A stretch of DNA of 64,000 nt from Planctomycetota bacterium. Lineage in GTDB: Bacteria; Planctomycetota; Phycisphaerae; UBA1845; UTPLA1. The stretch spans positions 62,001 to 126,000 of the forward strand of contig JAATGM010000020.1 in assembly GCA_015654675.1 (NCBI GenBank), written 5' to 3'. The position numbers were made by a program, and so were the translations under genes. Shown piece by piece: positions 19,401 to 62,403 of the stretch. The notes under the pieces were generated by a model, which did no database searches, was not told the DNA's origin, and saw only the letters and a program-made list of their open reading frames with translations. The first letter of the stretch is position 1, and each line of letters starts with the position of its first letter.

Positions 19401-20236
19401 GGTGAGTGGGAGTTTAGCGGCGGGGGGGCGGGGGACAATGGACGGTTGATAGCGGATAACGGAGAACGGAGAACGGGAAAACCTTCACGAGAATTAAACG
19501 GCCGTGGTCAGCGCGGGATGCCCCCATGGCCGAGGCGAGCCCGAGGCGGTGAGTCGCAGATTTAGGATGCCGGTCGATCGGGGCCCGGTTGCGGCAATCC
19601 AGATTTGCAATCGCCTATCTTGCAGGCGTTTGCAGTATCGCGTGGGATTCGTGGGGCGATATTGGATGTCGGAAGTGGGCGAGTCGTGGGGCGTGAGTCT
19701 TGGGTCTTGAGAATCGTGCGGGCGACTCGTCGCGCTGCGACGGCGGTGAGATTCTTGAGATTTGGGGCGGTCCGGGTTGTTTGGTAGAAGTTTTGTAGCC
19801 GGGGCGTCCGCCGCGGCGGGTCCAGTGCGGTATTGAGGCATAGGGGGAATTGAGACTTTCGAGGCCGGTGAGATTCGTGAGATTCGCAAGACGACCGCCG
19901 TTTGGTGAATAGAAACGGGGATCGGGCGTGAGATTGATGAGACGGCGAATTGAGATCGGTGAGATTTGGGGCGGTCCGGTTTGGGGGAGTCTGCAGACCG
20001 CTGACGACAATTGATAATGGTGACCCTTCGACAAGCTCAGGGCAGGTAATCGGCTTCTGACCTTTGGATTCACTTTTCAAAGAGCGGGTGGGGAGTCGGC
20101 GCTGAGCCCCCGTTCTGGGCTTTGCGCAGTTTGACCCCGGATTGCTCCCCCCTTTGTTACGTGGGAGCTTGTTCGGGTAGTGTTTAGTCTGACACAAATG
20201 GGAAGTCAAGGAAGATTTTTGGCTCCAGATCAATCG
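19401..20236. other. Non-coding 0.84-kb region with dispersed short repeats
   Basis: No convincing gene is present. A minus-strand open frame of 223 codons exists at 19562-20233 but its product is Ser/Pro/Arg/Thr-rich without any domain, and it includes the CPELVEG translation of a known dispersed repeat. Visible structure: the 19-base direct repeat GAGATTTGGGGCGGTCCGG at 19757-19775 and 19961-19979, several GTGAGATT variants between them, and a short tandem GGAGAACGGAGAACGG near 19460. The region separates the six-gene operon from the Kelch-repeat gene. Confidence 0.7.
20024..20046. repeat. Dispersed CCCTTCGACAAGCTCAGGGC-type repeat
   Basis: CCCTTCGACAAGCTCAGGGC followed by AGG is a short semi-palindromic element seen widely scattered in genomes of several phyla, often detected by its translation (ELVEG or LSLSKG). 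One copy is present here in non-coding DNA. Its function is not established. Confidence 0.7.
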
Positions 20237-23200
20237 TTATGGGCAGTTGGTATCGGGGTCGGTGAGGAGTTTGTTGATAAAGAGGGTGGCGTCGGCGGCG
20301 TTGAGTCTTAGGTCGCTGTTGAGGTCGGCGCAGCCGCAGTCGTTGGTGGCCAGGTTGCCGGACGCTATGCAGGCGATGAAAGGTTGGATGTCGCGGCCGT
20401 CGACGGCGTAATCGAGATCGAGATCGCCCTGGCAGAAGGCATTGCAGGCGCATTCGTCGGGGCGGTTGTCCTGATCGAAGTCGGATAGTAAGCCGTTGGC
20501 GATGTCGCAACTGTCGGGGACCCCGTTGGCGTTGCAATCGGTGGCGGTGCCGGCGGCGAGTTCGCAGGCGTCGAGAATCTGGTTGGCGTTGCAGTCGCCG
20601 ATTGCGGCGGAGTACTGGACTTTGACGGATATATAGGTTGCGCCGCCGCAGGGGTTGTCGACCAGGATGTTTGGCGTCATGTGGATGATGGCGTCGCCGC
20701 CCGGGACGGCGGCGTTCCAGGTTGCGGCCGGGATGGTGAGGATGTCCTGGTTGGGTGCGGGGCAACTGAATCCTGAGAAGGCGAAGGCGTTGCCGAGCGA
20801 GACGTTGTTGACGTCGATGGCGACGAATTCGGAGATCGAGTCGATATCGCCAACGCCGCGGAAGGTGAGGGTGACATCGGACGTGGCCGGTGGTGGGGCG
20901 GTGAGGGTAAAGGACTGCACGGTTGGGGCGAGGAGCGGGCTGAGGTTGGGGGATTGTTGTTCGTAGGTTCCGTTCAACTGGCAGGCGTCGGGGGTGAGGT
21001 TGTGAGCGCAGTCGGGGAGGCAGTTGGCGCCGCAGAGCAGGGGATTGGTCTGGCAGGCGTCGAGAATGCCGTCGTTGTTGCAGTCGTTTGCTGCGAGTTC
21101 GCAGCTATCGGGGATTGAATTGTGATTGCAGTCGACGCAATTCGGGCAGAGGGGCGGGACCTGGCATTCGTCGGGAATGAAGTCGAAATTGCAGTCGCCG
21201 GCGGCGAGTTCGCAGGTGTCGGGAACCAAATTGGCGTTGCAGTCCGCGCAGCTCGGGCAGAGCGGTGGGACCTGGCACTCGTCGGGGTTACCGTCGGTAT
21301 TACAGTCGAGACTTGAGCCCGAAAGGACGTCGCAGAGATCGGGTCGGCCATTGTTGTTGCAGTCGATGTCGCAGGCGTCCGGAATGTGGTTCTGATTGCA
21401 GTCCGCGCATGACGGACAAATTGGGGGAACCTGGCAATTGTCGGGGATGCCATCGTTCTGGCAGTCGGTGCAGGTGGGGCAGAGCGGAGGGACCTGGCAT
21501 TCGTCCGGACTGCCGTCGGCGTTGCAGTCGAGACTGAAGCCGGAACTGATGTCGCAGAGGTCAGGTTGACCGCTGTTGTTACAGTCGATGTCGCATATAT
21601 CCGGGATGTGATTCTGATTGCAATCGGAACAGGCGGGGCAGATCGGCGGAACCTGGCAGATGTCAGGGATGCCATCGTTTTGGCAATCGGCGCACGTGAC
21701 GCAGATGGGTGGAACCTGGCACTCGTCGGGAATTCCGTCCTGGGCGCAGTCGAGACTCGACCCACTCGCGATGTCACAGCTGTCCGGCTGACCGTTGCTG
21801 TTGCAGTCGATTTCACATTCGTCGGGTATCTGGTTGTGATTGCAATCGGGGCAAGTGGGGCAAATGGGCGGGACCTGGCAGAGATCGGGGATTGCGTCGC
21901 CCTGGCAATCGGAACAGGTCGGGCAGTATGGCGGGCGTTGGCATTCGTCGGGCACGCCGTTCGCATCGCAATCGAGACTTGAACCGTCGGCAATATCGAG
22001 TGCATCGTCGGTGCGGTTTTCGTTGCAATCGACGGCGGCAAAAGCGCCGTATTCCCATGTGTCGCCCAAGGGCTCGAACGAAAAATCGAGTCCTCCGAAA
22101 AGGACGACTGTACTACGCGCAGAATCGTAGACTAGCGTGTGCGCTGAGCGAGCGGCGGGGCGATTGAGAGGATTGGACTGCGTCCAAACCGCGCCATTCC
22201 ACACCCAAGTTTCGTTTCCGACGCCGGAACCGAGTCCCCCGAACAGCACCGATTCGGCGCGAGCGGCGTTGAATGCCATCGCGTGTTGAGTCCGCGCCGG
22301 CGGGCTGCCTGGCGGAGTCCGCTGAGCCCAATTCGAACCATTCCATTCCCACGTGTCGCCGAGTGATAAGCCAGAACTGCCGGTTCCACCAAAGAGAACG
22401 GTTACGCCGCGGGTGCTGTCAAATGCCATTGCATGAAAGTAGCGTGCGGGCGGGCTATTTGATGGAGCGCGCTGCAACCAATCGGCGCCGTTCCACTCCC
22501 ACGTATCGCCAAGCGCCGTATTGCCGGCGTTGCCGGAGGCGCCTCCAAAGAGCACGGTCAAGCCACGGACAGAGTCGAATGCCATCGCGTGATCAGAGCG
22601 AGCAGTCGGACTGTGAGTGGGAATGCGCTTGGACCAATTGTTGCCGTTCCATTCCCAAGTATCCCCGATTCGCCCGACCACCGGACTGACACCGCCGAAG
22701 AGAACGCTGACGCCTCTGGCGCTGTCATACGCGAGTATGGGGTCCCAGCGCGGCGGTGGGCTGGTCGGAGGGGTTCGCTGAACCCAGGTTGCGCCGTTCC
22801 ATTCCCACGTATCCGCCAAACCGAGGAAGGAAACGGGCATGCCGCCGAAGAGAACCGATCGATTGCGGCCACTGTCGAAGGCCATACCGTGGCGGGATCG
22901 CGCAACTGGGGTCGATTCCAGTTCTGGATGCAGCCAGTTCGTACCGTTCCATTCCCATGTCTGGCTTCCGACGACCGAGGGCTCACCGCCGCGGAGCACG
23001 ACCACGCCACGCGCGCTATCAAACGCCATTTTGTGGCCTGAGCCGACCGAAACCTGAGTAGCGGGAAAACGCCGAGTCCAATCACTTCCGTTCCATTCCC
23101 AGGTTTGGCCACCTTCGAATAGCAATACAACTCCAGCGGGCTCGAAATATGCCATGTCGCTGCCGAAACCGGGATTTGCTTGCGGGAATCGCTGCGTCCA

Positions 23201-23890
23201 AGTCGTCCCGTTCCATTCCCATGTGTCGGAGAAAAAACCTGTACTGGAAGTTCCGCCGTAGAGTACGGTTACTGCTCGGGCTGCGTCGTACGCCATCGGG
23301 GCATACTGCCGGCCGGGCGGATTGGTCGTGGGGTGGCGCTCCGTCCAGGCGGTTCCATTCCATTCCCATGTGTCCGAGCGAAAACCAACTCCGGCCGCGC
23401 CGCCAAAGAGCACTGCCACTCCGCGGGCGCGATCGAAAGCCATTGAATGTCTGGAGCGAGTTGGGGGCCGCACCGCCGGTGCGCGCTCGGTCCAATTTGT
23501 CCCGTCCCATTCCCACGTGTCATTGCCTCCGCTGCTACCGCCAAACAGGACGCAAACGCCGCGGGCTGAATCGAAGACCATGGCGCTGTCGTAGCGGGCT
23601 GAAGGGCTGTTGGCCGGAAAGCGCTGTCTCCAGAACTTTCCGTTCCACTCCCAAGTATCGCCAAGCGGGCCGCCGTTATACCCTCCGAATACGACGGTTA
23701 CGCCGCGAGTGCCGTCATAGGCCATGGCGTGATTGGCGCGAGGATTCAAGAGGGGAGGCCGCGTCCAGTTTGGTTGTTGTCCGAGTGCTGAGTCGGACAT
23801 GGTCGACATGAGCATCGCTGTTGCGAAGGCCCCATGCAGGCAGGCAGTTGATAGGCGTTTTGATGGCTGGACCTGGTATTGGCGACACAT
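20237..23890 (-). CDS. Large secreted Kelch-type beta-propeller protein with calcium-type repeats and dockerin-like C-terminus
   Basis: A 1217-residue protein. Residues about 10-38 look like a signal sequence (ATAMLMSTMSDSALGQ). Residues about 40-610 carry around twelve Kelch-like units, each with RSRH.MAFDSARGVTVLFGG followed by DTWEWNG. Residues about 612-970 are a Cys-rich array of DCNxNxxPDxC motifs, as in thrombospondin type 3-like calcium repeats, with a 74-residue higher-order period. Residues about 976-1095 form a separate beta domain (QSPNLSP to YISVKV). The end (GDLDLDYAVDGRDI ... LLTDPDTNCP) is a dockerin-like pair of Asp/Asn loops shared with other secreted proteins here. Cysteines imply export. 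A conserved 36-base element lies 107-142 bases upstream. Confidence 0.9.
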   Translation of the reverse strand: MCRQYQVQPSKRLSTACLHGAFATAMLMSTMSDSALGQQPNWTRPPLLNPRANHAMAYDGTRGVTVVFGGYNGGPLGDTWEWNGKFWRQRFPANSPSARYDSAMVFDSARGVCVLFGGSSGGNDTWEWDGTNWTERAPAVRPPTRSRHSMAFDRARGVAVLFGGAAGVGFRSDTWEWNGTAWTERHPTTNPPGRQYAPMAYDAARAVTVLYGGTSSTGFFSDTWEWNGTTWTQRFPQANPGFGSDMAYFEPAGVVLLFEGGQTWEWNGSDWTRRFPATQVSVGSGHKMAFDSARGVVVLRGGEPSVVGSQTWEWNGTNWLHPELESTPVARSRHGMAFDSGRNRSVLFGGMPVSFLGLADTWEWNGATWVQRTPPTSPPPRWDPILAYDSARGVSVLFGGVSPVVGRIGDTWEWNGNNWSKRIPTHSPTARSDHAMAFDSVRGLTVLFGGASGNAGNTALGDTWEWNGADWLQRAPSNSPPARYFHAMAFDSTRGVTVLFGGTGSSGLSLGDTWEWNGSNWAQRTPPGSPPARTQHAMAFNAARAESVLFGGLGSGVGNETWVWNGAVWTQSNPLNRPAARSAHTLVYDSARSTVVLFGGLDFSFEPLGDTWEYGAFAAVDCNENRTDDALDIADGSSLDCDANGVPDECQRPPYCPTCSDCQGDAIPDLCQVPPICPTCPDCNHNQIPDECEIDCNSNGQPDSCDIASGSSLDCAQDGIPDECQVPPICVTCADCQNDGIPDICQVPPICPACSDCNQNHIPDICDIDCNNSGQPDLCDISSGFSLDCNADGSPDECQVPPLCPTCTDCQNDGIPDNCQVPPICPSCADCNQNHIPDACDIDCNNNGRPDLCDVLSGSSLDCNTDGNPDECQVPPLCPSCADCNANLVPDTCELAAGDCNFDFIPDECQVPPLCPNCVDCNHNSIPDSCELAANDCNNDGILDACQTNPLLCGANCLPDCAHNLTPDACQLNGTYEQQSPNLSPLLAPTVQSFTLTAPPPATSDVTLTFRGVGDIDSISEFVAIDVNNVSLGNAFAFSGFSCPAPNQDILTIPAATWNAAVPGGDAIIHMTPNILVDNPCGGATYISVKVQYSAAIGDCNANQILDACELAAGTATDCNANGVPDSCDIANGLLSDFDQDNRPDECACNAFCQGDLDLDYAVDGRDIQPFIACIASGNLATNDCGCADLNSDLRLNAADATLFINKLLTDPDTNCP
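21303..21968 (-). repeat. Three 222-bp tandem coding repeats
   Basis: The codons for SSLDC recur at about 21303, 21525, 21747 and 21969, an exact spacing of 222 bases (74 codons). Each unit encodes two DCQNDGIPD/QVPPICP segments and two DCN loops, one followed by CDIDCNN.G.PDLCD. The fixed spacing shows the calcium-repeat array grew by duplication of a 74-residue block, not of the single motif. Confidence 0.85.
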
Positions 23891-24406
23891 GACTAATCCA
23901 ATCGTAACCGGCCGGGCCGGCTGGTTTTGGGCATTTTGGCGTGCGTGGGAGAGCGCTTTCGCGCTGCCGTCAAAGACCCCAGCTCGCTCGCGGGAGTAGT
24001 CGTAGACGGGGCGGATTCGTAACAGGGAAAATTTGGAAATCCTGGGAGCACTGTTACCGGGCGAAGAGGCGACAGTCTATTGGTTCGGGATTGAATCGCG
24101 GTGGCGGACCGCGCTGGAGGATGGTTTCTTGGTGGGAGTTCAATCTGTTTGTAAATCAGCTGCCCGGCCTGGGTCGCCTCACATCACCAATGCGGGTCCC
24201 CGAAACGGCGAGTCCCAGACATGTTGACTCGCGTTCATGCGAAATGGCAGGGCGGTGCCTGGACTGGCTGTGGAGCGATGGCGAGGAAACGGCGGGGTAA
24301 TGACGTGCGCGGCAGTCATTGAGTGGGGGTATCGGCTCTTAGCGTGCGTCACCCGCCCGGCCGGGGGCGGCCGGGTTGGCCCCGCGTCGGCTGTGGAGCG
24401 CTTACG
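23891..24406. other. Gene-free intergenic region upstream of the Kelch-repeat gene
   Basis: This 516-base stretch has no convincing gene. It holds the 36-base upstream element described separately. Near 24351-24376 a very GC-rich inverted repeat (ACCCGCCCGGCC then GGGGGCGGCCGGGT) lies just past the end of the VOC gene; with no T-run it is not a clear intrinsic terminator. The rest shows nothing recognised. Confidence 0.6.
23997..24032 (-). promoter_or_regulatory. 36-bp upstream element, copy 1
   Basis: Read towards the Kelch gene, the element begins ATTTTCCCTGTTACGAAT and ends CCGTCTACGACTA. It matches the copy at 49402-49437 at 34 of 36 positions. It lies 107-142 bases upstream of the Kelch gene start. 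TGTTACGAA and CGTCTA could be promoter or activator contacts, but their spacing is shorter than for usual ECF promoters, so a transcription factor site or conserved leader is also possible. Confidence 0.65.
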
Positions 24407-47395: not shown

Positions 47396-49339
47396 TCATG
47401 GACAACTTGGGTCGGGGTCGGTGAGGAGTTTGTCGATGAAGAGGTCGATGTCGGTTGTGTCGAGCCTGAGGTCGTTGTTGAGGTCGGTACAGCCGCAGTC
47501 GTTGACGGCGAGATCGCCGACTGTCACGCAGTTCAGGAATAGCTGAATGTCGCGGCCGTCGACCATGAAGTCCAGATCGAGATCTCCGGGGCAGAAGGCG
47601 CCGCAGCCGCATTGGTCGGGGCGCTGATCCTGGTCGAAGTCGGTTAATAGGCCCGAGTTGAGGTCGCAGTCGTCCGGGACGCCGTTGATGTTGCAATCGG
47701 TCGCTGCGCCAGAGGCGAGCTCGATGGCGTCGTCAATTCCGTTCTGGTTGCAATCGCCGAGAAAAGACAGTGCATCGCGAGCGTTGACCAAGCCCCAGCC
47801 GAAGAATAGGTCGTAGCCGGGAGTGCCGAGGTCGCGACAGGAGACCTGGAGGGCGTGTTCGACCTGGGCCGCGGTCAATTCTGGATTTCGGGAAAGAAGC
47901 AGAGCGGCGATTCCAGCCGTATAAGGGGCGGCGAATGAGGTATCATCGACGGTTGTATAGTCGCCGTTGACGTATCCAGCGTTCCCGGTGCGATCGGTTG
48001 AGACAATTGACTGACCCGGCGCGGAGAAGTCGATGCCGTTGCCGAAATTACTGAAGAACGCGAGAGCTCCGAAGCGGTTCAGGGCAGCGACCGCGTTGAC
48101 GACCGGAATGCTGGCCGGATAGGTGATTGTCGAGCTTGAATCGTTTCCGGCCGAAGCGAAGTGGACGATTCCGTCGGTCCAGGTCTGCTGGTACATGAAC
48201 TCTATCGTACTGGAGCTGAAGCCGTAGCCGTTGCTATTGTTGGTGACGCGGGCACCGATGGTCTCGGCCCAGGCGAGCGCATTAACCGTCCAACTGGTCT
48301 GGGCAGTCCAGTTTCCATTGCATGGGGTCAAGTTTGCGACGAACGTTCGGGCCGACGCGATGCGCGTGTCGGGGGCGATTCCCGCTATTCCGATAAAATT
48401 ATTCATCGTCGCAGAGATGCAGCCGGCGACCGCGGTTCCATGGTTTTCGCAGGCGTTCATCGGGCCCCCGCTGCCGCCCTGGCCGGTGAAGTCTATTCCT
48501 GGAATCTGATTCAGATCGGGATGGTCCTGTTGTACACCGGTGTCCAGGATTACGGTGATGACGGAGGGTGAGCCGGTGGTGATATCCCATGCTTCCGGGG
48601 CGTTCATATCCATATCGGGGGTTCCGCCGGATTGACCAGTATTGTTCAGGCCCCAACAGAACGTGAAGAACTGATCGTTCGGAATGACGTCGCTTTTTCC
48701 GGTGAGGATCATGTCGGGTTCGGCGAAGCGAACCTCCGGGCGAACAGCTAGTGCGTTTGCTGCGGCCAAGACCTGGTCCCCGCGGCGCGACCTCGCCTGA
48801 ACTCGATAGACGCCGCGCATTCCTGCCCAGTCTCGGTCCAGCACGATTCCGGCGCTGAACTGATCCAGAATGGCGCGGGCTCGTTTGTCGTCGATATTGC
48901 TCGCAAACCCGACGAGCAGGTTGGGAGTTACGACGATCGGTCCGCCGTCGCTTCCGATGTAGACTGGAGACGCGAAGTCGATATCCGCCAGCCCGGCGAG
49001 CGCACCTAGTCTGCGACTGATTGCGCCTGACGATCGCTCGGTCGTCGGATTCTCGATAAGGGACCATTGAGCGATGGGGAGGGGCTCGACATTAGAAACG
49101 GAAAGTCCGGCGGGGCTAACGATGGAGGCGATATCGTCGGCAGCGCCTGGGCGCCGTTGAACGGCGATGCGGGTGGAGTCGAGGGGGAGTTCCCGGCGTT
49201 CCTTGAAGTAATAGTAATGTTTAGGGGCTTCGGCGGAGTCTGCCTGGGGGGCGGCCATTGCCCGCGAGACTGACGCGGCTACGAGGAGTGTGCATATCGC
49301 TCGGGCAAAATTTTTCGATTGTCGGGTTATCAAGGCCAT
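47396..49339 (-). CDS. Secreted subtilisin-like serine protease with dockerin-like C-terminus
   Basis: A 647-residue protein with a signal peptide (about residues 1-29), a prodomain, an S8 peptidase and a C-terminal module. The catalytic triad is Asp266 (VITVILDTGVQQDHPDL), His300 (ENHGTAVAGCIS) and Ser468 (DDTSFAAPYTAGIAAL), with Asn about 369 for the oxyanion hole. After about residue 545 come DCNQNGIDDAIELA-type calcium motifs and the ending CPGDLDLDFMVDGRDIQ ... LLTDPDPSCP shared with other secreted proteins here. The element at 49402-49437 lies 63-98 bases upstream. A likely function is extracellular protein degradation. Confidence 0.93.
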   Translation of the reverse strand: MALITRQSKNFARAICTLLVAASVSRAMAAPQADSAEAPKHYYYFKERRELPLDSTRIAVQRRPGAADDIASIVSPAGLSVSNVEPLPIAQWSLIENPTTERSSGAISRRLGALAGLADIDFASPVYIGSDGGPIVVTPNLLVGFASNIDDKRARAILDQFSAGIVLDRDWAGMRGVYRVQARSRRGDQVLAAANALAVRPEVRFAEPDMILTGKSDVIPNDQFFTFCWGLNNTGQSGGTPDMDMNAPEAWDITTGSPSVITVILDTGVQQDHPDLNQIPGIDFTGQGGSGGPMNACENHGTAVAGCISATMNNFIGIAGIAPDTRIASARTFVANLTPCNGNWTAQTSWTVNALAWAETIGARVTNNSNGYGFSSSTIEFMYQQTWTDGIVHFASAGNDSSSTITYPASIPVVNAVAALNRFGALAFFSNFGNGIDFSAPGQSIVSTDRTGNAGYVNGDYTTVDDTSFAAPYTAGIAALLLSRNPELTAAQVEHALQVSCRDLGTPGYDLFFGWGLVNARDALSFLGDCNQNGIDDAIELASGAATDCNINGVPDDCDLNSGLLTDFDQDQRPDQCGCGAFCPGDLDLDFMVDGRDIQLFLNCVTVGDLAVNDCGCTDLNNDLRLDTTDIDLFIDKLLTDPDPSCP

Positions 49340-49689
49340 TCCTACCTCCTGAAGTCAGTTTACCGAGATGCAGACTTCGCCCATTACCGGGGAATAGGAA
49401 ATAGTCGTAGACGGGACGGTTTCGTAACAGGGAAAATGTGAGGTTTTTCGGGAATCTTTGCGCGGCGGGGGTACCGGGTGAGACATTGCATTTCCGGCAC
49501 CGGGGTTGGTCCGGATTCGTCGGGGCGACTCAAGTTCAGGTGAGGCGGCCGGGTGGTTGTAGATTTTTTTCGGAATTGTTGTTGCGCATTTGTGGGTTTT
49601 GCGACTACGGGGGCAGCGGCGTGGTGCCGGCGGGAGATGCCCCCAATTCGGGGTTTTTTCGGCGATGCGGCGTGGGATATCCTTAGGGG
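49340..49689. other. Divergent intergenic region between subtilase and sigma factor
   Basis: 350 bases with no gene. It holds the 36-base element (described separately) for the subtilase and the promoter region of the sigma factor gene. GC-rich runs near 49540 and 49640 show nothing else. No terminator is expected because the flanking genes are divergent. Confidence 0.6.
49402..49437 (-). promoter_or_regulatory. 36-bp upstream element, copy 2
   Basis: Read towards the subtilase gene, the element begins ATTTTCCCTGTTACGAAA and ends CCGTCTACGACTA, differing from copy 1 at only two of 36 positions. It lies 63-98 bases upstream of the subtilase ATG. TGTTACG and CGTCTA are candidate promoter or activator contacts. 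The copies share little similarity outside the element, which argues that it is itself selected. Confidence 0.65.
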
Positions 49690-50328
49690 ATGTTCGAGCC
49701 GGGTTCCGATGAGGTCGCGGATGGGTGGGTGGCCGGCGCCATCGGCGGGTCTGAGCAGGATCGGGAGCGTCTTGTCTCGATTCTGACGCCGCGGGTGCGC
49801 GCGATGGTGTTGGCGCGACTGGCGCCGGCGCCGTCGCAGTTTCATGTCGTGGACGACCTGGTGCAGCAGTCGTTGGTGGATGTGACGGCGAAGCTGCGCG
49901 AGCTGCGGACGCCGACGTTTGTGGCGCTGCGGTCGTTTGCTTCGGTGATCGTGTCGCGGCGGGTGGCAGACTATCTGCGCGACGCGGCCAAGCCGGAAGG
50001 GATGACGTTGCGGTTGTCGGCGGCGGATTCGTCGATCGTCGAGTGGCTGAGCCGGAGCTTGCCGGCGAGCGGGCGGTCTCCGCGAAGCGCGGCGGCGCGA
50101 GCGGAAGAGGCGGAGCGGATGTTGCTGGAGCTTGGCAAGTTGAAGGAGAGTCAGCGGGAGATTCTGACGCTGGCATTTTTCGACCAGCTTTCGCTGGATG
50201 AGATTTCGCAGCGACTGGAGATGAGCCGGCCGGCGACTTCGATGGCGCTGGTCCGGGCGATCCGCGCACTGCGGGCGCGGGTGGAGGGGTCGATGGGGTC
50301 CTGGAGTCCGCATGCGTACGGAGCTTGA
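49690..50328 (+). CDS. RNA polymerase sigma factor, ECF-like
   Basis: A 212-residue ECF-type sigma factor. Region 2 is visible as FHVVDDLVQQSLVDVTAKL, and region 4 as LSLDEISQRLEMSRPATSMALVRAIRALR, an HTH that contacts the -35 box. Its 3' end overlaps the kinase gene by 17 bases. Such sigma-kinase pairs are common in planctomycetes and probably act together as one signalling module. The GGGG immediately before the ATG is too close for a normal site, so leaderless transcription or a later start is possible. Confidence 0.9.
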   Translation: MFEPGSDEVADGWVAGAIGGSEQDRERLVSILTPRVRAMVLARLAPAPSQFHVVDDLVQQSLVDVTAKLRELRTPTFVALRSFASVIVSRRVADYLRDAAKPEGMTLRLSAADSSIVEWLSRSLPASGRSPRSAAARAEEAERMLLELGKLKESQREILTLAFFDQLSLDEISQRLEMSRPATSMALVRAIRALRARVEGSMGSWSPHAYGA

Positions 50329-53242
50329 CGGCGAGCGCGGTGACGAACTCGCGAACGAGATGGACCGGGCGCTGCGGTCTTTCTGGCGCGGGTCGCATGG
50401 GGAGATCGACCGGCTGGTGGGTGAGCCGGGGTCGTCGGCGCTGATGACGTGTCTGGCGGCGGTGACGGGGGAGAGCGCCGCGATTGTGCCGCATGTGCCG
50501 CGGATCGCGGAATATGAGATTGTGCGCGAGATCGGACGCGGGGGGATGGGCGTGGTGTATGAGGCGCGGCACGCGCGGACGCAGCGGCGAGTGGCGCTGA
50601 AGGTATTGCGCACGATTGACAGCGGCGGGCGGGAGGGGCGGTTATTTGCGCGCGAAGTGGGATCGTTGGCGCGGTTCAAGCATCCGAACATTGCGACACT
50701 GTTTGACGCAGGCGAGACGCCGGACGGGCGGTCGTATTTCGCCATGGAGCTGGTGGAGGGGGTGACGCTGGCGGAGTGGGCCCGGAAACGCGAGGCATTT
50801 GGCGGGACGCGCGAGGGGGCGGATCGGCGGCGGCTGGAGCTGTTTGGGCGGATTTGCGCGGCGGTGAATTATGCGCATCAGCGCGGGGTGATTCACCGGG
50901 ATCTGAAGCCGTCGAACATACTGGTGGATGCGAATGATCAGCCGAAGGTGCTGGACTTCGGGATGGCGCGGCTGCTGGATGCGGATGCTGAACTGGCGAC
51001 GCAGACGATGGAGATGAAGAACATCGTCGGGACGCTGGCGTACATGAGCCCCGAGCAGGCGATGGGTCGGCTGGACGACGTGGACATTCGGACGGATGTG
51101 TATGCGCTGGGCGTGATTCTGTATGAGCTGCTGACGGGGCGGCGGCCTTATGAGGTACGCGACAGTGCGCTGGCGGCGGGATTGGCGGCGATCGCGGAGA
51201 CGCCGCCGCGGCGGCCTTCGGTGGTGAACGCGGCTGCGCGGGGCGATCTTGAGGCGATCGTTCTGAAGGCGCTGGAGAAGTCGCCGGATCGGCGGTACGC
51301 GAGCGCGGCGGAGTTTGGGGAGGACGTGGAACGGTATCTGGGCAGCCGGCCGATTCGGGCGCGGCGGCCGAGCGTGGGGTATTTGCTGGCGAAGCTGGTG
51401 GGGCGGCACAGGCTGACAGCGGCACTGATCGGGGTGCTGGCGATTCTGGCGGCGGGGTCTGGCGTCGTTTTTGTGATGCAGGCGGCGGCGGTGCGGCGGC
51501 AGCGCGATGAGGCGAAGGCACAGACGCGGCGAGCAGAGCGGATCAGCGGGTATTTGACGGGGATGTTCGGGACGCTTGATCCGAAGCGATTGGGGCCGAG
51601 CGTGCCGGTTCGGTCGGTGCTGGATCAGGCGTCGGGGAGTCTGGAGAGCGAGCTGGCGGATGACCGGGCCACGCAGGCGGCGGTGCACGACGTGCTGGGG
51701 CGCGGATATATGGGGTTGGGGGTGTTGAATGAGGCGGAGCGGCATCTCAAGGCGGCGCTGGATTTGAGGCGGGAGGTATTTGGCGAGCGAAGCGGGCCTT
51801 ATGCGACATCGCTGCATCAGCTTGGATTGCTGGCGGTGCGGCAGCAACGGCCGGATGACTGGAAGCGACTTCTGACGGAGGCGTATGAGATCCGGCGCGA
51901 ATTGTTCGGCGATGAGAGTGCGGACGTCGCGGAGAGTCTGGACGCGCTGGGGCGGCGGTTCTCGAGCGGGACGGAGATGGCGGACGCCGAACAGATGCAG
52001 CGCCGGGCCCTGGAGATTCGACGAAAGATCGGCACGGATGAGCTGAGCATCGCACAGTCGCTGAGCGGTCTTGGGGTGCTGCTTGTGGCGGCGGGCCGGT
52101 ACGAGGAGGCGGAGCCGATTCTGGTGGAGGCGTTGGGAATCCAGCGGCGCATGCTGGGGCCGAGTCATTTTGACGTGGCGCGGACGTTGACGGATCTGGG
52201 GGAGATTTACTTCTATTGGGGACAGTACGACAAGGCGGAGGAGTGCCATCGCGAGCAGGTGCGGATACTGCGAAAATTATTTCCGCAGGGACAGGTGGAT
52301 CTTGCATTTGCGTTGTCTGACCTGGGCGGGATTCTGGGATTGAAAGGAGAATATCGTGAGGCGGAGCAGTTGATGCGGGAGGGGATCGAGATGGAGGGAC
52401 GATGCGGAGACGAGCCGCATCCGGCCCTGTGCACGAATAACTACGCCAAGTTTTTGCGTTCGCAGGGACGGTACGCGGAGGCGGAGCCGCTGGCGCGGTC
52501 GGTGTATGACTGGTGGCACGGCAACGCACTCGAGGCGCATCGCGCGAAGAGCTATGCGTGCCAGCATCTGGGGTTGATATTGCTGGATCGTGGGGAAGTG
52601 GATGAAGCGGATCGGTTGTTTCGGGCGGCGGAGGAGAACTGGCGGGCGCTGTTTGGGGAGACGCATCCGCGGCTGGCCGTGGCGTTGATCGGAGAGGGCC
52701 GCGTGGCAGAGCTGCGCGGACAAACGGCCGAGGCGGTGCGGTTTTTTGGTGCGGCGGTAGAGATTCGGCGCAAGCGGATCGGTGACGATCATCCGGAGAC
52801 GGCGGAGGCGCGGATCGAATTGGCGCGGGCGATGGCGGCCGCGGGGCAGCGAGTTCAGGCGGCTGCGACGGCACGTGCGGCGTTGGCGCTGCTGCGATCG
52901 CGGATGGGGGAGAAGAGTGCGGATGTTTCGTGGGGGATGTATGAGCTGGCGGGGATGGTTGAGGCGGCGGAGGCGGAGCAGTTGCTGCGCGGGTCGATTG
53001 CGATTGAGCGCGGGCTGGATCGGGAGCGGCATCCGCAGTTGGGATTGTCGCTGAGCCGGCTGGGGGAGGTGCTGGCGGCGCGTGGGGAGCTGGCCGACGC
53101 ATGTAGTGCGGTGGCCGAGGCGGTTGAGATCCTGAAGTCGAGGTTGAGCGCGAGCGACACACGGCTCATGAAGGCCGAGAAGGCGTTGTATTACTGCTCG
53201 TCGAAATCGCAGCCGCAGTCGTACATCAGGAGCATACGCTAG
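50312..53242 (+). CDS. Membrane Ser/Thr protein kinase with TPR repeats
   Basis: A 976-residue protein. The PknB-type kinase domain (about residues 66-340) has the Gly loop IGRGGMGVVYEA, ATP-anchoring Lys97 (RVALKVLR), catalytic Asp197 in HRDLKPSNIL and DFG at 215-217. A membrane helix follows around 366-390 (LTAALIGVLAILAAGSGVVF). The C-terminal part has some ten to twelve TPR helices ending near residue 960 (for example AADERYLKAAL-type, LGEIYFYWGQYDKAEECHRE). The N-terminal 60 residues are an acidic leader. The domain order suggests kinase inside and TPR sensor outside, or the reverse for TPR scaffolds. It is coupled to the sigma factor gene and probably regulates it. Confidence 0.92.
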   Translation: MRTELDGERGDELANEMDRALRSFWRGSHGEIDRLVGEPGSSALMTCLAAVTGESAAIVPHVPRIAEYEIVREIGRGGMGVVYEARHARTQRRVALKVLRTIDSGGREGRLFAREVGSLARFKHPNIATLFDAGETPDGRSYFAMELVEGVTLAEWARKREAFGGTREGADRRRLELFGRICAAVNYAHQRGVIHRDLKPSNILVDANDQPKVLDFGMARLLDADAELATQTMEMKNIVGTLAYMSPEQAMGRLDDVDIRTDVYALGVILYELLTGRRPYEVRDSALAAGLAAIAETPPRRPSVVNAAARGDLEAIVLKALEKSPDRRYASAAEFGEDVERYLGSRPIRARRPSVGYLLAKLVGRHRLTAALIGVLAILAAGSGVVFVMQAAAVRRQRDEAKAQTRRAERISGYLTGMFGTLDPKRLGPSVPVRSVLDQASGSLESELADDRATQAAVHDVLGRGYMGLGVLNEAERHLKAALDLRREVFGERSGPYATSLHQLGLLAVRQQRPDDWKRLLTEAYEIRRELFGDESADVAESLDALGRRFSSGTEMADAEQMQRRALEIRRKIGTDELSIAQSLSGLGVLLVAAGRYEEAEPILVEALGIQRRMLGPSHFDVARTLTDLGEIYFYWGQYDKAEECHREQVRILRKLFPQGQVDLAFALSDLGGILGLKGEYREAEQLMREGIEMEGRCGDEPHPALCTNNYAKFLRSQGRYAEAEPLARSVYDWWHGNALEAHRAKSYACQHLGLILLDRGEVDEADRLFRAAEENWRALFGETHPRLAVALIGEGRVAELRGQTAEAVRFFGAAVEIRRKRIGDDHPETAEARIELARAMAAAGQRVQAAATARAALALLRSRMGEKSADVSWGMYELAGMVEAAEAEQLLRGSIAIERGLDRERHPQLGLSLSRLGEVLAARGELADACSAVAEAVEILKSRLSASDTRLMKAEKALYYCSSKSQPQSYIRSIR

Positions 53243-57147: not shown

Positions 57148-57858
57148 CTAGGGATCCGTTAGCCTTGCGTTTGTGACGACGCCGTCGGGATCTACATCAA
57201 ACATGACGCACATGCCGGAGCTTGGGCCGACGGGCAATTTGGGGTGGCCGAGGTCGTACTGCAGGTTGTGAAAGACGGTTCGCGGGCTTCCGAACATGGC
57301 CACAATGCGATCTCTCGATTGGCCGTGAAGTGTCTTCCGAGATTGGGCAGTATCGAGCATTGAGAGTCGATCGCAGATCGACGCGGTCTTCCAGGCGACT
57401 TCGTCGAATGGCTTGAAGTCGAGGATACAATCTGCGGGACGCCCCGATATATGAATTCCGTTGACAGACCAGTCCGAGTTAAATGCAAAGCTTGCCTCCG
57501 CCCCGTCGCCCAACGAGTACCCGAGAGTGCGAGACTCATATGAGGGCGGGCCGAGCCTTGCGCGGACTTCAGTGGCGGCCAGCCCGACGATGTGTCCGTC
57601 GCGAAGGAGATTTCTTACCATCGTCCGTCGGGTATCAGGATTCCCGACTCGCCAAGCGGATGCGTCGAAGGATCTTTCGGACGCGAAGGCCGTTCGGCGA
57701 TTGAGATAGCGAGCCCCCGCGCGCATACCGACTGCCAGCAGCGCGATAACACCCGCGATGGCGATCAGTCGCGCAGCGGTATGGCCGGACCGGTATGGGC
57801 CCACTATGAGCGCTTTTGATGATTGATAAACGATCGCGACGAGTTGTCTATTGACCAT
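57148..57858 (-). CDS. Membrane-anchored protein with two BamE/SmpA-like modules (tentative)
   Basis: A 236-residue protein from ATG 57858 (site GGATGG eight bases upstream). A single N-terminal membrane helix (AARLIAIAGVIALLAVGMRA) anchors a soluble part with two similar small modules: IVGLAATEVRARLGPPSYES and DRIVAMFGSPRTVFHNLQYD, each followed by a strand ending in NG or V. This VxxLGxP pattern is that of BamE/SmpA-like domains, but this is a weak assignment. The gene is co-oriented with the TolB-like gene two bases ahead. Function unknown. Confidence 0.65.
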   Translation of the reverse strand: MVNRQLVAIVYQSSKALIVGPYRSGHTAARLIAIAGVIALLAVGMRAGARYLNRRTAFASERSFDASAWRVGNPDTRRTMVRNLLRDGHIVGLAATEVRARLGPPSYESRTLGYSLGDGAEASFAFNSDWSVNGIHISGRPADCILDFKPFDEVAWKTASICDRLSMLDTAQSRKTLHGQSRDRIVAMFGSPRTVFHNLQYDLGHPKLPVGPSSGMCVMFDVDPDGVVTNARLTDP

Positions 57859-58106
57859 GCTGCGTGCCATCCTATGAACGCGCGGTGACGATGACTCTCG
57901 TTCGCAATTCCGCCGGGCCGAATCGCGCGCTGCGGTCATAGTCGTGGAAATCGTCGTCGCGCAACGAGAAAAATCCATCCAATCTGAAAGCTGGCTGGTC
58001 GAGTCGCCACTGATGCTAAGTCGTTTGAATCTGACCGGTTAGGCGTTTGGGCAAAAGAGAACATGACGGCTGCCTGCCGGGCGCGGATGGCCATTTCGCG
58101 CGGGAA

Positions 58107-59385: not shown

Positions 59386-62300
59386 CTAAGGGCATTGCAG
59401 AGTCGGATTGGTCAGCAGCTCAGTTACGAAGGCCTGGACGTCGGCGTTGTTGAGGCGGTTGTCGTTGTTCATGTCGGCGCAGCCGCAGTCGTTGATCGAG
59501 AGGTTGTGGCCGGCGATGCAATTCATGAAGGGGGTGATGTCGCGGCCGTCGATCATGGCGTCGAGGTCGAGGTCGCCGTGGCAGAAGGCGCCGCAGCCGC
59601 ACTGGTCGGCGCGGCCGTCGTGGTCGAGGTCCGTGAGGAGGTTGTCCTGAATGTCGCAACTGTCGGGACGGCCATTGGCGTTGCAGTCGTCGACGGTGCC
59701 GGACGCCAGCTCGCAGGCGTCGAGGATGCCGTTGGTGTTGCAGTCGCCTTCGGTGGTGGCGTAATCGACCTTAACGGATATGTAGGACGCGCCGGAGCAG
59801 AGGCCGTCTACCAGGGCGTTGGGCTGCATGGTGATGAGGGCATTGCCGCCGGCGACCGCGGCGTTCCATGTGGCGGCTGCGCAAGTGAGCGTGGTGGTGT
59901 TGGCGAGCGGGCAGGTGAATCCCGAGGTGGTGAAGACATTTCCGAGTCCGATGCCGTTGACGGAGATATTCACGAATTCCGATGCGGAGTCGATGTCGGC
60001 GACGGCCTTGAAGGTGAGGGTGACGTCGCCGGCGGCGGCGACCGGGGGTGAAGTTAGAAGGTAGGTCTGTGGATTGGGCTGCACAAATGGGGAGAGATTG
60101 GGCGACTGGCGGCTGAAGGAGCCGACGAGCTGGCACGAGTCAGGGACGAGATTGTGGTCGCAGTCGGCGAGGCATGATCCGCCGCAGAGGGACGGGTTGG
60201 TCTGGCAGGCGTCGGGGATTCCGTCCTGATTGCAGTCCGGGACTGTGCCGAGGTTGACGTCGCAGCTGTCGGGGACGTTGTTGTGATTGCAGTCTGCGCA
60301 GGTTGGACAGAGCGGCGGGAGCTGGCACTCGTCGGGGATGGAGTCGGCCTGACAGTCGGGGCTGAAGTGGCTGAGGATGTCGCAGGCATCGGGGATGTTG
60401 TTGCTGTTGCAATCGGGGCAGGTGGGGCAGAGGGGCGGCAGTTCACATTCGTCGGGGATGTTGTTGGCCTGGCAATCGAGACTGGTATGGGCGGTGATGT
60501 CGCAGGCGTCGGGAATGTTGTTGTGGTTACAGTCCTTGCAGGTGGGGCAGAGCGGGGGAATCTGGCATTCGTCGGGGACGCCGTCCTGCTGACAATCGGG
60601 GCTGGTGTGGGCCGCGACGTCGCATGCGTCGGGGATGGCGTTGGCGTTGCAGTCGATCTCGCAGGAATCAGGAATGTGGTTGGCGTCGCAATCGAGGCAG
60701 TTGGGGCAAATGGGCGGGACCTGGCAAATGTCCGGGATCATGTCGTGATTGCAGTCGGCGCAGGTGGGGCAGATCGGTGGAACATCGCATTCGTCGGGGA
60801 TGGCGTTGGCGTTGCAGTCGGGGCTGGTGGCGTTGGCGATGTCGGTCGCGTCGGGGATGCCGTTGTTGTTGCAATCGGTGATGGCGCTGAAGGTGACGGG
60901 GTCGGAGGGGATGCCATTGGCGACGACGTAGAGCGAGTAGGTGCCGCCCTGGAGACTTTGTGGCACGCGGAATTCGGTGGTGACGATCGCGGCGCCGGTC
61001 ATGACGCTGGTGCGGCTCCAGCTAAAGGTGCGCGCGTAGTAGACGTTTGTTCCGCTGGTTAGTCGGACGAGCGGGTAGTTGCTATCCATCTGCAAATCGT
61101 CGCCGTAGCCGGCGCCTTCGGAGATGCCGTTGAGGCCGGTGCCGGTGAGGTGGTATGAGCCGTCGAGGTTGGAGGTGATGGTGTTGATGACGGGCTTTCC
61201 GGCCGTGAGCGGCGCGCCGGTTGGCGTGTAGACATAGAGTTGGCTGCCGAAGTGAGAGTACAGCACGCCGCCGTCGGGGAGGACGAGCATGGCGGCTTCG
61301 AACGAGGAGATGTTGTCGGTGGGGCCGGTTGGGCCGTTGACGGCGGTGAATGCGTTGGCGACGTAGTCGTATTCGTAGAAGCTGGTGGGCGAGGGAAAGT
61401 GATTGCCGCTGGTCGGGATGGCGCTGACGGCGCAGAGAATGTTGCCATTGACCATCATGGCGGCGGGGGCGTCGGGCGTTCCGTGGCTGCCGGGGATGTC
61501 GGGGCCGGCGATCCAGGTGCCGGGGCTGGTTGTTCCGGTCGGGGTATAGATGGCGGTGTGTCCGGTGGAGCCGAGGAAGAAGGCCTTGCCGTTGGGGAGG
61601 AGGAAAGCGGCGCCCAGTTCGAAACCGAAGGGATCGTAGAGGGAGACTGGGACAATTCCGTCGTTGATCCAGGTGTTGGTGGCTGGGATGTAGCGCTCGG
61701 AATTGGTGCCAAAGGGATCGATGGTGAGGATGCTGTCGTCCGGGAGTTTGACCCAGCTGGCTTCGTCCTGATAGGAGCCGCGGAAGAGTCTCGGGCCGTT
61801 GGTCCAGGTGTTGGTGTTGGGGTTGTAGAGGACGGTTCCGCCGGAGGTTCGTGGGGCGACCGGGCTAATGAGGACGCTTCCGTTGGCGGTGATTTTGGCC
61901 ATTGAGTCGAGGAAGGCCTGGGCGCCGCCGGTGACCGGCGAGGTTGCGGCCGGGTTGAGCACGGTCGTGGGGATGGGGTTGGCGGTCCAGATGTTTGTGA
62001 GCGGGTCATAGATTTCGGATTTAGAGGCACCGGTTCCGTATTCGCCGCCGGCGACGAAGAGGCGGCCGTCCTGAAGGAGGGCGGAGGAGTAGTAGAGGCG
62101 GCTATCGATCATCGAGCCGAGGACGGACCAGGTGCCGTTGATAAAGCTGCCGTGGATGTCGGGGGTGAGTCGGAACCAGCCGCGGCCGATGGTGGAGCCG
62201 TCGTTCTGAGCGGCGGCGATGGTGCCGTCGGAGAGCTGGATCATGAGATTGACACCGCCGGGGGCGGAGCGGACGAGGGGCGTCCAGGTGCCGGCCATCG

Positions 62301-62403
62301 CGCGGGGCGAAATGCCTGCGACCAGAAGGGCCAGCAGGCCGAGTTGGCGCATGGCGAACAGTCGGAACGCGGGGGAGGACAAATTGAGAGCGCGATCAAT
62401 CAT
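59386..62403 (-). CDS. Secreted Kelch/galactose-oxidase-like protein with calcium-type repeats and dockerin-like end
   Basis: A 1005-residue protein. A signal peptide (LGLLALLVAGISPRAMA) precedes a beta-propeller of about 400 residues with Kelch blades such as SSALLQDGRLFVAGGEYG and GAAFLLPNGKAFFLGSTGH; it resembles galactose oxidase-like repeats, but the copper ligands were not identified. Residues about 505-770 are DCNxNxIPDxC calcium-type repeats. A beta domain (QSPNLSP to YISVKV) and a dockerin-like tail (GDLDLDAMIDGRDI ... LLTNPTLQCP) follow, both shared with the protein at 20237-23890. The ATG follows AGGAAAAA. Extracellular. Confidence 0.88.
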   Translation of the reverse strand: MIDRALNLSSPAFRLFAMRQLGLLALLVAGISPRAMAGTWTPLVRSAPGGVNLMIQLSDGTIAAAQNDGSTIGRGWFRLTPDIHGSFINGTWSVLGSMIDSRLYYSSALLQDGRLFVAGGEYGTGASKSEIYDPLTNIWTANPIPTTVLNPAATSPVTGGAQAFLDSMAKITANGSVLISPVAPRTSGGTVLYNPNTNTWTNGPRLFRGSYQDEASWVKLPDDSILTIDPFGTNSERYIPATNTWINDGIVPVSLYDPFGFELGAAFLLPNGKAFFLGSTGHTAIYTPTGTTSPGTWIAGPDIPGSHGTPDAPAAMMVNGNILCAVSAIPTSGNHFPSPTSFYEYDYVANAFTAVNGPTGPTDNISSFEAAMLVLPDGGVLYSHFGSQLYVYTPTGAPLTAGKPVINTITSNLDGSYHLTGTGLNGISEGAGYGDDLQMDSNYPLVRLTSGTNVYYARTFSWSRTSVMTGAAIVTTEFRVPQSLQGGTYSLYVVANGIPSDPVTFSAITDCNNNGIPDATDIANATSPDCNANAIPDECDVPPICPTCADCNHDMIPDICQVPPICPNCLDCDANHIPDSCEIDCNANAIPDACDVAAHTSPDCQQDGVPDECQIPPLCPTCKDCNHNNIPDACDITAHTSLDCQANNIPDECELPPLCPTCPDCNSNNIPDACDILSHFSPDCQADSIPDECQLPPLCPTCADCNHNNVPDSCDVNLGTVPDCNQDGIPDACQTNPSLCGGSCLADCDHNLVPDSCQLVGSFSRQSPNLSPFVQPNPQTYLLTSPPVAAAGDVTLTFKAVADIDSASEFVNISVNGIGLGNVFTTSGFTCPLANTTTLTCAAATWNAAVAGGNALITMQPNALVDGLCSGASYISVKVDYATTEGDCNTNGILDACELASGTVDDCNANGRPDSCDIQDNLLTDLDHDGRADQCGCGAFCHGDLDLDAMIDGRDITPFMNCIAGHNLSINDCGCADMNNDNRLNNADVQAFVTELLTNPTLQCP

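Follow-up and report, generated by a model that had tools for sequence, protein, structure and literature searches.

A repeated 36-bp element in a planctomycete genome is a probable promoter of a kinase-linked ECF-type sigma factor

One of the closest described systems is Tt-RpoE1 of Thermoanaerobacter tengcongensis, whose experimentally dissected ECF promoter, tGTTAC-N16-CGTC, is autoregulated (PMC3397946). ECF sigma factors linked to kinases have also been described, among them ECF43 (EcfP/PknT and EcfK/PknS) and the planctomycete groups ECF59, ECF61, ECF62 and ECF217 (PMC8999054, PMC13147305). The criterion for ECF43 is that the acidic, DAED-like sigma2.2 motif is replaced by uncharged residues plus a phosphorylatable Thr (PMC8999054). 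Several planctomycete ECF groups adjoin Ser/Thr kinases, and in the literature that we found these groups are predictions only. With respect to secreted proteins, one source (PMC6461901) outlines a hypothetical 'planctosome' of freshwater Phycisphaerae, in which dockerin-type modules occur in secreted peptidases and repeat proteins that are proposed to work extracellularly.

The DNA analyzed here, which we call the window, is a stretch of 64,000 nucleotides. The initial annotation reported two copies of a 36-bp element within it, and realignment and shuffling bore this out: the copies at 23997-24032 (-) and 49402-49437 (-) are identical at 34 of 36 positions, and both lie 5' of minus-strand genes, in one orientation relative to them. 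The 28-bp core matched twice in the window and never in 100 dinucleotide shuffles. BLAST of the copies extended the conserved stretch to 36 of 39 positions, slightly beyond the 36 bp first described. A search of the genome (4.93 Mb, 62 contigs) located a third copy outside the window, at C5:187555, 5' of a Kelch paralog. Exactly three 36-bp copies exist in this genome; a profile built from them retrieved no fourth or weaker 36-bp copy. The full element was found neither in the 16 other genomes of the family nor in 113 other genomes of the order, where the weak matches were unlike the whole element, nor in 85k species genomes. Viral contigs gave no match, and a viral origin was rejected. The flanks had been said not to align. 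This holds for Kelch copy 1 against the subtilase copy, but the flanks of the third copy are weakly similar to those of each window copy over 73 to 83 bp.

The genes behind the two window copies encode quite different proteins. Copy 1 precedes a Kelch gene (20237-23890, -) for a 1217-aa secreted-type protein with Kelch repeats, DCN repeats and a Dockerin_1 tail (Pfam); its ATG is 106 bp from the 28-bp core. Copy 2 precedes a subtilase gene (47396-49339, -) for a 647-aa protein with a Peptidase_S8 domain (Pfam) and a similar dockerin-type tail, its ATG being 62 bp from the core. The two Kelch genes are 90% identical over their last ~300 codons and ~490 bp of 3' flank (window 19747-21200; L038 10300-11726), compared with about 60% protein identity over the remainder, and we therefore infer recent conversion or segmental duplication in this family. 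Short repeats of the type CGAATCTCACCGATCTCA occur in that 3' flank.

Aligning the three copies over a 36-column core placed all five variable columns between TGTTAC and CGACTA (p = 0.012, a post hoc test, as were several of the motif tests). These two invariant boxes are 16 bases apart, the layout of an ECF sigma-factor promoter, for which a pair of short boxes near -35 and -10 and a varying spacer of 15 to 17 bp are expected. CGTCTA had been proposed as the second contact. We reject it as the -10 box: it reads GGACTA in the third copy and is only 10 bp from TGTTAC, too near for its role. The -10 box is therefore the next hexamer, CGACTA, which is invariant and at ECF spacing. In copy 1 (-), the predicted -35 box TGTTAC lies at 24024-24019 and the predicted -10 box CGACTA at 24002-23997, with a predicted transcript start near 23989; in copy 2 (-), the corresponding predictions are 49429-49424, 49407-49402 and a start near 49394. 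The boxes are numbered by analogy with Tt-RpoE1 (PMC3397946).

Across 15 sites, strong conservation is confined to the two boxes, and the sequence diverges immediately after the -10 box of the three copies. One base of the -35 box differs: it is A in the three 36-bp copies and G in most other sites, including the promoter of the sigma gene itself. In the three copies, TTTTCCC 5' of the -35 box and most of the spacer are conserved as well. This exceeds the need of a plain ECF promoter; a second factor's site or conversion is possible. No housekeeping promoter was found near the element copies. Two features are common to both Kelch genes and absent from the subtilase gene: a CTGTTAC inverted repeat, CGGTAACAG-N25-CTGTTAC, that spans the -35 region (24051-24060 with 24019-24026; L003), and CGGTTACGAT, located 13 bp 5' of the start codon.

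Where else does such a promoter occur? Genome-wide tests were pattern searches, with genes taken as ORF calls. The exact pattern TGTTRC-N16-CGACTA occurs 7 times in the genome against 0.66 expected from hexamer frequencies; this count includes the three seed copies, and the four sites beyond them alone give p = 0.005. All seven exact sites lie 39 to 106 bp 5' of a same-strand gene, whereas about 18 of 20 one-mismatch hits are not so placed, most being inside coding regions (Fisher p = 0.001 for the four sites not used to build the motif). Besides the two Kelch genes, the subtilase gene and the sigma-kinase pair, the exact sites precede three further genes, whose products are a protein of 358 aa that probably has a signal peptide (C14), an FG-GAP/Ig protein (C54) and a zinc-ribbon membrane protein (C54:63107; L134). 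A near-exact site, ending in CGACTC, lies before the gene for a lectin/laminin-G protein of 1756 aa that also has DCN repeats and a dockerin tail (C32). The reading of the element as a promoter, as offered in the initial annotation, is thus well supported by boxes at ECF spacing and by the position of the sites before same-strand genes.

Some of these targets extend beyond this genome. In G001 and G009, the apparent orthologs of the C32 DCN-repeat/dockerin gene are likewise preceded by the site, bringing the number of genera to three, and zinc-ribbon membrane-protein genes with the site are present in this genome, G001 and G009. In three genera, the sigma promoter is followed by genes for membrane proteins whose C-terminus is a zinc ribbon of the CGY(D/N)LTGN...CPECG type (L134, L182, L192, L200). 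Upstream regions of Kelch and subtilase orthologs in relatives contained no element or site; the subtilase homologs of relatives have C-terminal tails of a different type. In the window, CGTTGCG-N15-CGACTA also occurs at 57939-57966 (-), inside the start of ORF 57148-57978; it is a chance match in coding sequence, or the true ORF start is further in.

The element had been proposed to mark a regulon of dockerin proteins, and a genome-wide search of the pattern for enrichment at genes with the shared tail had been suggested. That tail was detected in about 57 ORFs of the genome, with the subtilase tail as the best genome match, and the top three tail scores (E 1e-65 to 1e-72; next 1e-53) belong to exactly the three element-bearing genes. 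Hence the three copies do sit at the three closest-tail genes. However, most tail genes lack the 36-bp element, which stands 5' of only 3 of the ~57; a fourth has the looser promoter. Nothing resembling the element was found in the upstream regions of the next-closest tail genes, including ORF 59386-62403 in the window. Tail genes are enriched among the targets (4/8; p about 2e-6), yet outside the motif-building set they account for only 1 of 5 (p 0.07), and the targets include non-dockerin envelope proteins. Because the element is missing 5' of the other close-tail genes, we conclude that the tail association is real but is not a general dockerin signal, and we reject a general dockerin regulon.

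Beside copy 2 is the gene for an ECF-type sigma factor of 212 aa (49690-50328, +), the predicted reader of the element. Pfam Sigma70_r4 and the NCBIfam sigma70-ECF superfamily score above cut-off and Sigma70_r2 just below it; like group IV sigma-70 factors, the protein has sigma2 and sigma4 domains only. Its orthologs in other genera are 40-47% identical. The 3' end of the sigma gene is overlapped by a gene for a Ser/Thr protein kinase with TPR repeats (50312-53242, +; Pfam Pkinase, TPR), giving the gene order of kinase-linked ECF factors, and a similar kinase gene is also found 3' of the orthologous sigma genes. From this gene order, the kinase presumably controls the activity of the sigma factor. 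The sigma-kinase orthologs of a related genus, G001, also lie divergent from a subtilase gene (L137 6494-6824); that subtilase has a different C-terminal part and no site of its own.

Autoregulation of ECF sigma genes is common, though not universal. A search with TGTTAC-N16-CGWCTA, allowing one mismatch, identified a looser promoter copy, TGTTGC-N16-CGACTA, at 49580-49607 (+), 82 bp 5' of the sigma gene and pointing at it. This site is predicted to be autoregulatory, with a transcript start near 49615. Of the 12 upstream regions of sigma orthologs, this one included, 7 contain GTTGCG-N15/16-CGAC between -104 and -133, whereas 2000 first-order shuffled sets averaged 0.02 and never exceeded 1; the other 5 regions lack the site. 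The motif therefore stands 5' of its predicted cognate sigma gene, as ECF promoters often do. In Bpl_8 (L147), a site faces the opposite way, toward a divergent secreted-type protein. Downstream of the predicted sigma promoter and ahead of the start codon of the sigma gene, at 49639-49661 (+), is a terminator-like hairpin with a T run (GCCCCCAATTCGGGGTTTTTTCGG), which may be an attenuator or may be due to chance (2 found versus 0.8 expected).

Among family genomes, the density of YGTTRCG-N15-CGACTN is higher in those with the sigma factor than in those without it (p = 0.001; 0.003 after omitting this genome), absence being scored at E <= 1e-15 in draft genomes. For the reversed motif, density did not differ between the two groups (p = 0.67). 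The earlier suggestion that the sigma factor encoded at 49690 drives the element is therefore well supported: 7 of the 12 ortholog regions, its own among them, carry the site, exact sites are placed before genes, and sites are denser in genomes that have the sigma factor.

Could a different ECF sigma factor read a promoter of this same type, the neighboring sigma gene being just another target? Planctomycetes usually encode many ECF factors, and the -35 and -10 boxes of different factors can be alike. However, the site precedes sigma gene 49690 and its orthologs in other genera, site density tracks the presence of this factor, and the genome holds no second match to it at E <= 1e-15, that is, no close paralog. 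We regard this explanation as unlikely. We give still less credence to the view that the 36-bp copies are the operator of a separate activator or repressor and resemble the sigma promoter only secondarily. The conservation beyond the two boxes (TTTTCCC and most of the spacer) and the inverted repeat that the two Kelch genes have in common would fit an operator; but the two promoter boxes are precisely the parts that do not vary, the subtilase gene lacks the inverted repeat, and the looser motif precedes other targets without the extra bases. A combination, in which a promoter is joined by a second site, is possible.

The copies might instead be recent duplicates or products of gene conversion with no selected function. 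Such events do occur in the family, as the nearly identical Kelch 3' ends and flank indicate, but the sequences around the element are unalignable or only weakly alike. Identity reaches 92% in the element but only 75-76% in the tail DNA of Kelch and subtilase, and the footprint at the sigma orthologs is independent of the three copies. Moreover, identity at third codon positions in the N-terminal part of the Kelch paralogs is only 31-62%; a simple recent duplication therefore does not explain the extra conservation, and we consider it very improbable that the copies lack function. Least probable of all is a conserved RNA leader element (a riboswitch, attenuator or RNA-binding site): the element, 60-110 bp 5' of start codons, could fall within a leader, but the conserved bases cluster in two short boxes spaced as in a promoter, with divergence right after the -10 box, and a structured RNA was rejected when Rfam gave no match around copy 1, the copy scanned.

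Judging from sequence comparison, we think it very likely that the element is an ECF promoter read by sigma factor 49690, which would be autoregulated and drive a small secreted/envelope regulon. For this promoter reading, the computations show how the sites are conserved, placed and oriented, the footprint, and the enrichment in genomes that have the sigma factor; that transcription occurs, that this sigma factor binds and that the kinase exerts control is what we infer. The promoter would consist of a -35 box YGTTRCG and a -10 box CGACT(A), with CGAC starting 16 bp past YGTTRC, and RNA polymerase with sigma factor 49690-50328 would read it. Through 49580-49607 the sigma factor probably switches on the operon that encodes it and the kinase, and the adjoining kinase presumably sets its activity. 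The predicted regulon would comprise the two Kelch proteins, the subtilase, the lectin/laminin-G protein with DCN repeats and dockerin tail, the FG-GAP/Ig protein, the 358-aa secreted-type protein and the zinc-ribbon membrane protein. More tentatively, this kinase-linked factor may be, in several planctomycete lineages, a dedicated switch for extracellular repeat and dockerin-type proteins, including secreted proteases, with TTTTCCC and the spacer of the 36-bp copies acting as an additional binding site that gives three targets a second input.

No earlier report of this promoter motif was found in the literature searched. For one kinase-adjoining factor there is now a promoter consensus, YGTTRCG-N15-CGACTa, along with evidence from several genera for its autoregulation and a short, testable list of targets that includes secreted dockerin-tailed proteins. 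The element and the Tt-RpoE1 promoter both have GTTAC as -35 core, followed at a distance of 16 bp by a -10 box of the form CGNC, and both belong to an autoregulated ECF type, here by prediction, but the -10 box is CGTC there and CGAC(TA) here, and most sites here have GTTGCG at -35 (PMC3397946). Tt-RpoE1 has an anti-sigma factor, whereas sigma factor 49690 adjoins a Ser/Thr kinase (PMC3397946). That kinase gene lies directly 3' of an ECF-type sigma gene, as in kinase-linked ECF groups of planctomycetes (PMC8999054, PMC13147305). Unlike ECF43, sigma factor 49690 keeps acidic residues in its sigma2.2 motif (VVDD), as do its orthologs, and is therefore not of the ECF43 type (PMC8999054, PMC13147305). 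Finally, as with the 'planctosome', planctomycete secreted peptidases and repeat proteins carry dockerin-type modules, although the domain make-up at this locus (Kelch, subtilase, lectin) is different (PMC6461901).
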